Below, piece after piece: positions 5,069-30,182 of a DNA stretch of 64,000 nt. Made by a program: the position numbers and the translations under genes. Within the stretch, counting starts at the first letter, position 1, and each line of letters begins with the position of its first letter. The notes under the pieces were generated by a model, which was not told where the DNA came from, searched no databases, and saw only the letters and a program-made list of their open reading frames with translations. Source of the DNA: Ignatzschineria sp. RMDPL8A (GTDB lineage Bacteria; Pseudomonadota; Gammaproteobacteria; Cardiobacteriales; Wohlfahrtiimonadaceae); contig NZ_JAPPWA010000002.1 of NCBI RefSeq assembly GCF_029815055.1, positions 372,001 to 436,000 on the forward strand, given 5' to 3'.

Positions 5069-5140
5069 TGTAAGCGCTTTATGCGGAGCAGTTGCCGTTT
5101 GTGCATTTCTGCTCTATACTCAATTTTAGAAATTAATCGA

Positions 5141-5240
5141 TTTCCACTAGAGGTGCTGTTGAAAACAGCTGAGATTGAAGTGATCAACTTCGGGACTCTT
5201 TGAACCTGAACTAGTTAAGACTAGCGGAGGAAAGTGGGCG
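5141..5240 (+). promoter_or_regulatory. TPP riboswitch (THI element)
   Basis: All conserved parts of the thiamine pyrophosphate aptamer are present in order: the P1 strand CCACT (5144-5148), GAGGTGC, CTGAGAT at 5169-5175, CTTTGAACCTGA, the ACTAGTTAA / ACTAGCG arms, GGAGGAA, and the closing P1 strand AGTGG (5233-5237). It sits about 210 nt upstream of the thiazole operon, so binding of TPP should repress tenI-thiSGF. I did not see a convincing intrinsic terminator between aptamer and gene, so the mode of control (transcription or translation) is open. Confidence 0.95.
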
Positions 5241-5369
5241 AGCTCTTAAATAAATCCTCGCGCGATAGAGAGATAATTATTGCGTTAGCGACATTGATTT
5301 TAGAGCCACAGCACACTTTCTTAGAAGGACGATTGGGTTATTCCAACGGCCATTTAAGGAAGTTTTTTT

Positions 5370-27887: not shown

Positions 27888-28616
27888 TTAATTAGCTTGA
27901 TGAGTGGAGCTAATCACCAGTTCTCGCACACAAATCTCTTGGGGCATCTCATAGACAAAGAGTGCCGCTTTCGCTACTTCATAGGGATCCATCGCCGCCC
28001 CTTCAGGCAGGCTCTTTTTCCATTTTGTATAACTTTGGCGAATCTTTTCATCGGTAGTATGGGTTAATAGATCAGTTTCTGCAGCGCCTGGGGAGAGCAG
28101 CATCACGCGAATATTGTGGTGCGCGGCCTCCATGCGAAGCGTATCGGTCAATCCATGAACGGCAAATTTCGTTGCGCTATAGGCGGCGTGATTTTGGTAG
28201 ATATTAAATCCCGCGGTGGACGAGACATTGATGATGGTGCCATGTTTTCGCGAGAGCATGCGTTTGAGTGCAATTTGGGAGCCATTTAAGACACCTTTCA
28301 GATTCACATCGATCATCTGATCCCATTCCTGCGGGTCTTGATTCCACACCTTTTGCAGTAGCATTTGCCCTGCATTATTAATGAGAAGATTGAGCGGGCC
28401 GTAAAGCGCTTCGGCCTCACTGAGCGCTTGGGTAAATGCCTCATAATCGGCAACATCCACCGCGCGGCAGAGCGTATTGGGAAGGTTGAATTTTTCCATC
28501 ACTTCCACACGGCGACTTAGCAATAAGAGCGGGTAGCCCTTTTCGCTAAAGAGATAGGCCATTTCGCGACCAAAGCCGCTGCTTGCGCCTGTAATCACAA
28601 CTAAAGGTTTTCCCAT
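27888..28616 (-). CDS. Short-chain dehydrogenase/reductase (SDR)
   Basis: A 242-residue classical SDR. The cofactor motif TGASSGFG is at 9-16, NNAG at about 84-87, and the catalytic residues are Ser in INVSSTAGF and YSATK (Y-x-x-x-K). The Arg-rich LLSRR after the second strand suggests NADP(H) preference. The closest named relatives are YdfG-like 3-hydroxy acid dehydrogenases and other ketoreductases; substrate unknown. GAGGAGG precedes the ATG. It is upstream of the alcohol dehydrogenase on the same strand but probably in a separate unit. Confidence 0.85.
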   Translation of the reverse strand: MGKPLVVITGASSGFGREMAYLFSEKGYPLLLLSRRVEVMEKFNLPNTLCRAVDVADYEAFTQALSEAEALYGPLNLLINNAGQMLLQKVWNQDPQEWDQMIDVNLKGVLNGSQIALKRMLSRKHGTIINVSSTAGFNIYQNHAAYSATKFAVHGLTDTLRMEAAHHNIRVMLLSPGAAETDLLTHTTDEKIRQSYTKWKKSLPEGAAMDPYEVAKAALFVYEMPQEICVRELVISSTHQAN

Positions 28617-28877
28617 CGGATGCCTCCTCGAGCGTCGTAATGATTGAATCAGTTTAGCCTACTTTTAAAATTCCATAGGGGGTATTAAATCAGCGTTTGA
28701 TTTTGACTAGGTTTATGTTTGAAAAGTGATAAAAGAGTTGAGGGGATGCGAAATTTCGTCTAATCGATTGGAGGTTTTTCGATAAAGGGCGATAATTGGC
28801 TTACGCTCGAACGGGGAAAAAGCGCAGTTTAGTCAGGCAAAGTAGGGGGTATCAAATCTGCCGGAGAATTGTTTAGA

Positions 28878-28909
28878 TAAAAAGAAGCCCGTGCACAATG
28901 TGTCCGGGC
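28878..28909 (-). terminator. Terminator of the candidate small RNA
   Basis: On the minus strand GCCCG (28905-28909) pairs with CGGGC (28887-28891), with inner pairing, followed by TTCTTTTT. Confidence 0.75.
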
Positions 28910-28998
28910 GAAATAATGTCAGTTATGTATATCACCATCGTGTGGGGTGGTGACCTCGCTTTAGCTGTTAATGCCCGCAAGCTGAATCAAATCGGCAT
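28879..28998 (-). ncRNA. Candidate intergenic small RNA of about 120 nt
   Basis: A strong promoter (29005-29034) and an intrinsic terminator (28878-28909) on the same strand enclose about 120 nt with no open reading frame of note. The transcript can form a 5' hairpin (GAATC / GATTC), a central one (TCACCA / TGGTGA) and the terminator hairpin. It does not match the hallmarks of 4.5S RNA, 6S RNA, RNase P RNA or tmRNA that I know. The nearest minus-strand gene downstream (SDR) starts about 260 bp past the terminator, so it is not simply that gene's leader unless there is readthrough; it could be an attenuated leader. Confidence 0.6.
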
Positions 28999-29004
28999 AG
29001 ATTC

Positions 29005-29034
29005 ACTATAGTCGCCTTTGAATTTTGTTGTCAA
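29005..29034 (-). promoter_or_regulatory. Promoter of the candidate small RNA
   Basis: On the minus strand TTGACA (29029-29034) and TATAGT (29005-29010) are separated by 18 bp. Confidence 0.75.
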
Positions 29035-29147
29035 ATTGTAGTATCGCGATTTTTACAATTTTGATTAAATTGGCGTTAACTCATTTATCTTAAAGGAGAT
29101 AAAAGCGCGCAAAATAGAGAAAAGAAGTGTAAAGAATCCCTATTTGA

Positions 29148-30182
29148 TCATGATGGCTGATCATTTGGGCTCTCATAATTGGGGGAATTGAGTGTGCCGA
29201 TTTGTGCATTGGTATGAATAAAGAGCCGTTCGATATGGGCTAATAATTCATGAAGGGGCGTTGTCTCCTTTTTCGTAAGCTCGGTTAAAAACGCCGCAGG
29301 ATCGCGAAGGGAAGCTTCAGGCGTTGGGGTAAAGAGCAGATTTTCTTTAAAGGAGACACAAAGCGCGCCGGGAATAAATTCATAATTGATGCTCAAATAG
29401 CGATCCGCCGCATTGGTAAGCGCTTCGACAACCACCGGCGTTAAAAAAAGCGCGGCTCCTTTTTCATTGGCGGCAAGGGTTCTAAAGTGACGATTAAAGC
29501 GAATGGACGCGGGCTCGTAATTTGATTGAAGTTTTTTAAACGCCGATTCACGCCGGTTAAGAAAGGAGAGTTGATATTTCACAAAAGGTGAGCGAATCAC
29601 AATGCCGTAACGATCATGACGCTGAAATTGGGTGTTGCCGGTTTTTTCATTCTTCTCTTCTAAATAGCGCAGGTGAAAGAGCGAATAATTAAAAGAGAGG
29701 GTTTTACCTTGGTAACGGCCCTTGGCATAAAAAGGGAGATCGCGCTGATCGCCGCGGCGAAAGATGCGGTAATATTCGCAGTAGCGTCCAATCAGCTCTT
29801 TTGAGTTGTATTTCGGAATCTCAAGCGCCTCATCGAGGACTAAATTGGCATCAAAGATTTTTTGCGAATAGAGATCAAGGCGACGTTTACGGAGGATGGC
29901 CAGTGCTAAAAGCGCGCCTAAATAGATTAATAACGGTAAAAAAAGGAGCGGGAGATGGGTGATCAAAACGCCGATCGTAACCAGTAAAATTCCCGTGCCG
30001 CCTGCGAGATAGAGTAAGCGATTATCATACTCCGTTCCGCCCCGAATGGTTGAAAAACGCTGGACTGCCGAATGAATGGCCTCATGATTCGGTGACTGAG
30101 AAAGCAGCTGATCGACAGAGCGATACGCTTCATTGAGCGCGCGATTATGCTGAAAAATATCGCTTAAGCGGGGTAGGGGCAT
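29148..30182 (-). CDS. DUF3137-type membrane protein, LemA partner
   Basis: A 344-residue protein with two adjacent hydrophobic segments (about 55-72 and 76-95) and a large soluble C-terminal part. The region with SKELIGRYCEYYRIFRRGDQ, FYAKGRYQGKTLSFNYSLFHL and a long mixed alpha/beta stretch fits DUF3137 proteins, which commonly follow lemA. The gene begins 33 bp after the lemA stop codon, so the two form an operon. Function is unknown; the pairing suggests a shared envelope-associated role. The ribosome binding site is weak, consistent with translational coupling. Confidence 0.7.
   Translation of the reverse strand: MPLPRLSDIFQHNRALNEAYRSVDQLLSQSPNHEAIHSAVQRFSTIRGGTEYDNRLLYLAGGTGILLVTIGVLITHLPLLFLPLLIYLGALLALAILRKRRLDLYSQKIFDANLVLDEALEIPKYNSKELIGRYCEYYRIFRRGDQRDLPFYAKGRYQGKTLSFNYSLFHLRYLEEKNEKTGNTQFQRHDRYGIVIRSPFVKYQLSFLNRRESAFKKLQSNYEPASIRFNRHFRTLAANEKGAALFLTPVVVEALTNAADRYLSINYEFIPGALCVSFKENLLFTPTPEASLRDPAAFLTELTKKETTPLHELLAHIERLFIHTNAQIGTLNSPNYESPNDQPS

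Follow-up and report, generated by a model that had tools for sequence, protein, structure and literature searches.

A putative SAM-II-type aptamer in an orphan promoter-terminator unit of Ignatzschineria sp. RMDPL8A

A small transcription unit of Ignatzschineria sp. RMDPL8A, lying in the 64,000-nucleotide stretch of DNA analysed here (the window), is probably best read as a SAM-II-type aptamer equipped with a promoter of its own and with a terminator expected to form with or without S-adenosylmethionine (SAM), giving a discrete RNA of about 120 nt that was duplicated from a metI-metQ leader. The kind of aptamer is already known; its orphan setting is unusual. The reading draws on a computed promoter match, the aptamer sequence, covariation in P1 and in the pseudoknot, a terminator hairpin, the element's link to methionine genes at other loci and the finding of no above-chance antiterminator. 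In the proposed course of events, the promoter would start a short transcript with a SAM-II-type pocket near position 28998, the terminator would form whether SAM is bound or not, and the RNA would end at about 120 nt. Once released, it would either serve as a stand-alone SAM-responsive RNA, base-pairing with other transcripts or having a stability that depends on SAM, or be a decaying duplicate. What had been annotated as an orphan small RNA thus becomes a testable SAM sensor. The features of the locus, all on the minus strand, are:

28879-29034, orphan RNA unit (promoter, about 120 nt and terminator) in a 531-bp gap
29005-29034, sigma-70-type promoter TTGACA-18-TATAGT, with TTGACA at 29034-29029, an 18-nt spacer and TATAGT at 29010-29005
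28951-29004, putative SAM-II-type aptamer, the stretch modelled by covariance models R1 and R2
28998-28994 with 28975-28971, aptamer P1
28993-28988, 28981-28977 and 28965-28957, conserved aptamer letters GATTTG, CTTGC and GCTAAAGCG, respectively
28956-28985, pseudoknot, with core TTGC (28980-28977) pairing with GC(T)AA (28965-28961)
C28984-G28957 and T28985-A28956, short P2a, the second pair of which covaries in relatives
28931-28954, intervening hairpin GTCACCA/TGGTGAT, in the minimum free energy fold and in folds with the aptamer forced
28879-28909, intrinsic terminator, GCCCG..CGGGC at 28909-28887 with an inner 3-bp stem, then TTCTTTTT to 28879
28676-28852, two GCNGATTTRATACCCCCTA copies in the SDR upstream region, with ATACCCCCTA at 28852-28843 and 28685-28676
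27888-28616, SDR gene (PF00106, 1.6e-51), the next gene downstream, with 260 nt between the terminator and its start; a doubtful target

The initial annotation had described a strong promoter and a terminator around some 120 nt of sequence in a gene desert of about 530 bp, and this layout was borne out. The gap between the flanking ORFs runs from 28617 to 29147 (531 bp); the ORF that ends, in the sense of transcription, at 29148 gives a weak, below-cut-off match to DUF3137. The promoter agrees with the consensus at 11 of 12 positions, and a match of at least 11/12 occurred in just 15 of 1000 dinucleotide shuffles of the gap. Promoter-like matches of at least 9/12 in the region 28300-29700 were not commoner than in shuffles (3 versus 2.6 ± 1.6). 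The start expected from the −10 box, about 28998, yields an RNA of about 120 nt, which we infer from the sequence would be made in the cell. The terminator hairpin has a local fold of −13.3 kcal/mol and, in the fold of the full RNA, outer-stem pair probabilities of 0.965-1.0; it is absent from the list of a simple terminator scan, we think because its outer loop exceeds the limit of that scan. The RNA, taken as 124 nt, folds at −34.6, versus −25.4 ± 3.96 for shuffled sequences (z −2.32), a value matched by 2 of 200. The 159-nt unit is unchanged (0 differences) in a second genome of this species, the sequence downstream of it differing at 4 of 259 positions and that upstream at 5 of 113, four of these five near the end of the neighbouring ORF. 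The unit had no match at E ≤ 1e-5 in a plasmid collection from which records very near the window's genome may have been left out. Elsewhere in the window, a TPP riboswitch is found at 5139-5249 on the plus strand (79.9 bits).

BLAST of the stretch against 57 genomes, its own and those of relatives, brought out a block of conservation some 42 bases long, whose window form is ATGCCGATTTGATTCAGCTTGCGGGCATTAACAGCTAAAGCG. Genomes of the window's family carry several copies of it apiece, and a few genomes from outside the order have it as well. At the locus, every Rfam family falls short of its gathering cut-off; SAM_alpha (SAM-II, RF00521) scores 19.0 bits (E 0.072), below its cut-off of 36. The covariance search that had been proposed in the initial annotation was run with two models. 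Model R1 scores 60.6 bits on the window copy, a circular value because R1 has the window sequence in its training set; therefore, R2 was built from 22 sequences (alignment A3) with the window's family excluded. With R2, the window copy reaches 55.3 bits (E 1.3e-14 in 81 kb; E 3.5e-13 in the genome), compared with 56.6 bits for the copy before metI and only 14.5 bits for the next-best match in the window.

The same core passes the SAM_alpha cut-off elsewhere. A distant gammaproteobacterium (L029) scores 42.1 bits, with three others in that test at 31.0-33.4; of 18 named loci with this core from alpha-, beta- and gammaproteobacteria, 5 exceed the cut-off (L076 at 37.8 bits), as do 4 of 8 loci from Burkholderiales (L090, L101 and L094 at 52.0, 44.5 and 43.9 bits, respectively). 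The ligand-pocket letters GATTTG, TTGC and GCTAAA are complete in the window copy, their invariance in alignment A2 being partly a matter of construction since the search patterns fixed those letters; the roles of pocket nucleotides are set out for SAM-V in PMC6061858, and we take the SAM-II residues to match them. Judged by these sequence features, the aptamer is a SAM-II-type SAM element, and SAM would be the ligand of the window RNA. It is called SAM-II-type, and not a formal member of RF00521, because its Rfam score lies below the gathering cut-off. That no Rfam family attains its cut-off at the locus might be held to favour a new class of RNA without kinship to known riboswitches, which is highly improbable in view of the passing scores of L029, L076, L090, L101 and L094 and of the methionine genes with which the element is associated.

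Covariation was assessed in P1 and in the pseudoknot. The inner P1 pairs are invariant by construction, as one fixed scan pattern (a GCC/GGGC stem) was used. Beyond this fixed core, the first P1 pair is standard in 97 of 98 distinct sequences (UA 27, CG 68, UG 2), the second in 75 and the third in 53. Taken jointly, the three outer pairs are standard in 225 of 294 cases, compared with 74/275 and 135/250 with the partner offset by one or two positions. For P2a, the pair tested was that of the base before CAG with the base after GCG, in the 88 of 99 distinct sequences that have the standard core (the 11 with a different core were excluded). Of the 88, 69 have a standard second P2a pair (AU 28, UA 25, UG 8, GC 6, GU 2), while shuffles give 38.4 ± 4.5 and none of 2000 comes as high; in a 34-row alignment it shows 15 two-sided changes among 34. 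A longer P2a was unsupported, the third pair being standard in 32 of 88 versus 34.5 expected in shuffles. The pseudoknot core is standard in 34 of 34 but invariant, hence uninformative, and the search patterns had partly fixed its letters. In the 34-row alignment the whole structure exceeds all 500 shuffles in paired cells, two-sided cells and covariation score, with the limit that the shuffles used in these structure tests leave sequence relatedness in place; no excess was seen in how many pairs changed on both sides or in the number of pair types. The covariation of the second P2a pair supports the predicted pseudoknot, in a register that we read as that of the SAM-II P2a.

Compared with SAM-II (RF00521), the window copy has the same P1 hairpin, the same loop pseudoknot with GCTAAA and the core GATTTG, CTTGC and GCTAAAG; its relatives also share the downstream transcription terminators and the methionine genes. 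It differs in its score below the Rfam cut-off, a short linker, the lack of an adjoining methionine gene and an antiterminator no better than chance, and in a P2a of about 2 bp, whereas this helix has 5 bp in 60 % of SAM-II RNAs according to the excerpted text of PMC6061858. The same excerpt describes the ligand-binding core of SAM-V as nearly superimposable on that of SAM-II and gives SAM-V a P2a of 2 bp, as in the window. SAM-V, however, is translational, and the SAM-V Rfam models gave no match at E ≤ 10 in 28600-29200.

A further counterpart is the metXZ RNA element of betaproteobacteria, which, in the portion of the paper at hand, has six conserved regions able to form a pseudoknot followed by a terminator, and precedes metX or metZ in one copy per genome (Leyn et al. 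2014, PMC4239095). In that portion, SAM_alpha is found only in Rhizobiales and Rhodobacterales, and the metXZ element is not equated with SAM-II. In such bacteria, the motif studied here is likewise found upstream of MetX- and MetZ-type genes, and the aptamer is probably the metXZ element, an identity that goes by the description in that part of the text and not by sequence letters. The metX/metZ and terminator context holds for the motif elsewhere but not for the window copy. If the two are the same, the uncharacterised metXZ element gains a likely ligand, SAM.

The motif was sought in a pattern scan of named genomes, which yielded at least 117 loci, a sample as regards taxon spread; among the matches listed were alpha-, beta- and gammaproteobacteria and a few metagenome-assembled genomes labelled otherwise (at least 80 loci by title). 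The initial annotation had named a lack of conservation outside this strain as a refutation; this fails for the aptamer, present in all three of these classes, while the orphan locus turned up in this species only. A same-strand downstream ORF was assigned to 111 of 119 motif places, eight being dropped, by taking the longest same-strand ORF of at least 80 codons that starts within 450 nt of the motif, a rule that may have picked some wrong genes in GC-rich DNA. Their Pfam families, which may overlap, were Cys_Met_Meta_PP (31), Abhydrolase_1 (17), S-methyl_trans (11), Met_synt_B12 (MetH; 7), MetW (5), Homoserine_dh (3), HTS (MetA; 1) and S-AdoMet_synt_C (1), together with ABC_tran (11) and NMT1 (10). 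Abhydrolase_1 is the fold family of MetX, and the first member was MetX by NCBIfam. The motif precedes the O-succinylhomoserine sulfhydrylase MetZ in four distant gammaproteobacteria (L020, L029, L049 and L050), and outside the window locus the element was found upstream of metZ, metX and metH genes. Among 369 genomes drawn from the class, R1 at E ≤ 1e-4 matched 175, while RF00521 scored above its cut-off in 30 and reached E ≤ 0.001 in 117; the comparison of 175 with 30, across different models and thresholds, points to a SAM-II type that is more frequent in the class than the Rfam cut-off would indicate. In the window's family, 17 of 18 genomes had copies at R1 E ≤ 0.01, the lone exception being 80 % complete; the rest of the order gave only three weak R1 matches (E 8e-4 to 3e-3).

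How such leaders would switch was examined through pairing of the terminator 5′ arm with upstream sequence, by folding that ignores kinetics and pseudoknot energy. Before the 3′ arm exists, upstream pairing of the 5′ arm has a mean probability of 0.22 in the window copy, versus 0.57-0.78 in nine other leaders. When the upstream sequence was shuffled, 189 of 200 shuffles reached the window value, compared with 5, 2, 11 and 1 of 200 for the four other leaders tested (L033, L047, L031 and L038, respectively). The metI copy, L031, assumed to be a real attenuator, is thus borderline in this test and non-significant in a simple duplex test (222 of 1000 dinucleotide shuffles), as is L050 (170 of 1000). 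Pairing of the arm with the aptamer through TTGCGGGC was equalled in 18, 5, 1, 12 and 5 of 1000 dinucleotide shuffles for L033, L035, L038, L042 and L047, respectively, and pairing through GCTAAAGC in the metZ leaders L020 and L049 in 10 and, weakly, 44 of 1000. It can be inferred from this complementarity that SAM binding would exclude antitermination in those leaders, i.e., that they would attenuate transcription in an OFF direction. In the window, CGGGC of the aptamer can pair with the arm GCCCG at −11.4 kcal/mol, and 67 of 1000 dinucleotide-shuffled and 181 of 1000 mononucleotide-shuffled aptamers pair as well. The cost of an antiterminator fold, with one window arm base constrained, is 2.1 kcal/mol, and 0-5.7 in nine others, so that it does not separate the window; the cost is 10.6 kcal/mol once seven window arm bases are made to pair upstream. 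An antiterminator in the window copy was rejected as not above chance in the duplex test and in the paired-upstream test. With the antiterminator at chance and terminator pairing near complete, this copy therefore seems to have no switch into a downstream gene.

These results bear on the proposal that the unit is a cis-acting transcription attenuator of the SDR gene, perhaps also of the Fe-ADH gene, in which bound SAM would cause termination and low SAM would allow read-through. This proposal is doubtful. It has on its side that the SDR gene is the next one downstream on the same strand, that sister terminators before metI-metQ and metZ have arms complementary to the aptamer, that the window too has a five-pair complement, and that its antiterminator cost falls within the range of the others. 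Moreover, the dioxygenase copy has metQ genes beside it with a zinc alcohol dehydrogenase after them, so that dehydrogenases near copies are not unique to the window, and the L041 motif lies 500 nt ahead of the start of a dioxygenase ORF, so that distance alone is no bar to the SDR. Against it stand the lack of an antiterminator beyond chance, a terminator whose pairs have probabilities of 0.965-1.0, the 260 nt with a repeated motif that separate it from the SDR gene, and the family matches of the neighbours (SDR, Fe-ADH and NhaC), which show no evident methionine role. The two repeats are the sole occurrences of ATACCCCCTA on both strands of the window. By their sequence, the GCNGATTTRATACCCCCTA repeats are a possible operator, and their position between terminator and SDR gene suggests that the latter has its own control. 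A CsoR/FrmR-type operator was rejected as an identity for the ATACCCCCTA repeats, the genome having no PF02583 protein.

As to whether the SDR gene always follows the unit, as the initial annotation had wondered, two of the 18 genomes of the family encode a homologue at E ≤ 1e-40, and both belong to this species; the SDR was therefore rejected as a conserved partner, the 16 family genomes of other species having no homologue at that threshold. The idea of a riboswitch-type attenuated leader of the SDR gene thus fares poorly in the face of the intervening 260 nt with repeats, the chance-level antiterminator and the 2/18 distribution. Of the two alternatives offered at the outset, a new trans-acting RNA or such a leader, what has held up is the presence of a riboswitch aptamer; the aptamer is, however, of a known kind, and its link to the SDR gene is weak. 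Cis control of the SDR is less likely than a discrete, always-terminated RNA; some read-through into the gene is possible, but the main design is probably otherwise.

The discrete, terminated RNA preferred here is one of four R1 copies in the window's genome, the others lying in the leaders of metI-metQ-metQ, of a 2OG-Fe dioxygenase gene and of metQ-metQ. The metI-metQ and metQ copies stand before methionine genes, whereas the window copy is an orphan with SDR, Fe-ADH and NhaC as neighbours. Its closest BLAST match in its own genome is the metI copy (query 7-84 of 171, 79 %), the match reaching into the promoter region, and the metI-metQ copy also has TTGACA upstream. The window unit would most likely have arisen as a duplicate of that riboswitch leader, promoter included. 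The orphan unit occurs in two genomes, both of the same species, among 18 of the family, a narrow base on which to judge selection.

Two ways in which such a duplicate could now exist are considered, stand-alone SAM-responsive action and decay. A terminated SAM-II leader that persists as a small RNA would not be without precedent by analogy with RZ of Sinorhizobium meliloti, described in the available part of PMC9373788 as the terminated metZ SAM-II leader, a discrete sRNA that is raised and stabilised at high SAM. Going by that part, RZ shares with the window unit the combination of SAM-II aptamer and terminator giving a discrete sRNA, which in the window is a prediction; it differs in being the stopped product of a working metZ leader, while no methionine gene follows the window unit. 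It is a tentative suggestion that the window RNA is an autonomous SAM-sensing sRNA that has become detached from its gene; with a promoter of its own, a SAM-II-type pocket and an unconditional terminator, it would act in trans, e.g., on paralogous met leaders or other mRNAs, and not on the adjoining gene. Trans-acting terminated SAM-I leaders are known from Listeria. As a sub-case of the preferred reading, the unit could instead be a recent duplicate of a leader that has no function, its target gene having been lost or never acquired. The orphan position in one species only, the nearest match to the metI copy including part of its promoter, and the chance-level antiterminator all agree with decay; an aptamer that scores as well as that of the metI copy (55.3 versus 56.6 bits), an intact promoter and terminator, and 0 differences over 159 positions in the second genome, though few would be expected, speak against it, and decay is considered unlikely.

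The same genome carries three SAM-I riboswitches, before metF, metH and metE (G000:C2:174559, 165100 and 1732924; L214-L216), while SAM-II-type elements precede its methionine-uptake genes. One genome would thus carry two unrelated SAM sensors side by side. Of the 18 family genomes, 14 have a SAM-I score above cut-off, and each of these has R1 matches too. In the class sample, SAM-I occurs in 10 of 369 genomes, three of them (G000, G264 and G317) with an R1 match as well. In G317 (C2:342920-343308), a SAM-I and a SAM-II-type element lie back to back and divergent, 213 bases apart. A 2007 survey reported, in the portion available, no species with both SAM-I and SAM-II (PMC2258182). Searches of open-licence literature, a weak guide to absence, returned nothing that joined "SAM-I and SAM-II" with "same species", or Ignatzschineria with riboswitch.

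In 5 of the 8 Burkholderiales loci (L101, L104, L064, L095 and L099), RF02424 (Bp2_287) matches the strand opposite to the element, all matches being below cut-off (26.4-39.7 versus 70 bits). By eye, the RF02424 consensus looks like the reverse complement of the aptamer, and this Burkholderia sRNA family may have been modelled on the antisense strand of a riboswitch. RF02424 was rejected as an identity for the window RNA (12.3 bits versus a cut-off of 70, on the other strand).

A second form of the aptamer, with GCTAAGC for GCTAAAGC and hence one A fewer, was seen before genes of metQ-type lipoproteins in L002, L005, L006, L007, L032, L037, L041 (two) and L046 (two), the copy in the window's own genome being L032:6259. 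In our alignment, the absent A corresponds to the SAM-V adenine that contacts the amino-acid end of SAM, and the second form has perhaps a changed ligand preference. The loop reads GGAGAA in 7 of 10 second-form copies (L005, L006 and L032 differ) and is followed by TTCTC or TCTCC and a Shine-Dalgarno sequence containing GGAG; from these letters the loop seems to mimic the ribosome site, as in a translational switch. At L032:5162-6172 and at other family loci, a 2OG-Fe(II) dioxygenase gene lies behind SAM-II-type leaders and adjoins metQ-type genes; the enzyme may act on a sulfur compound.
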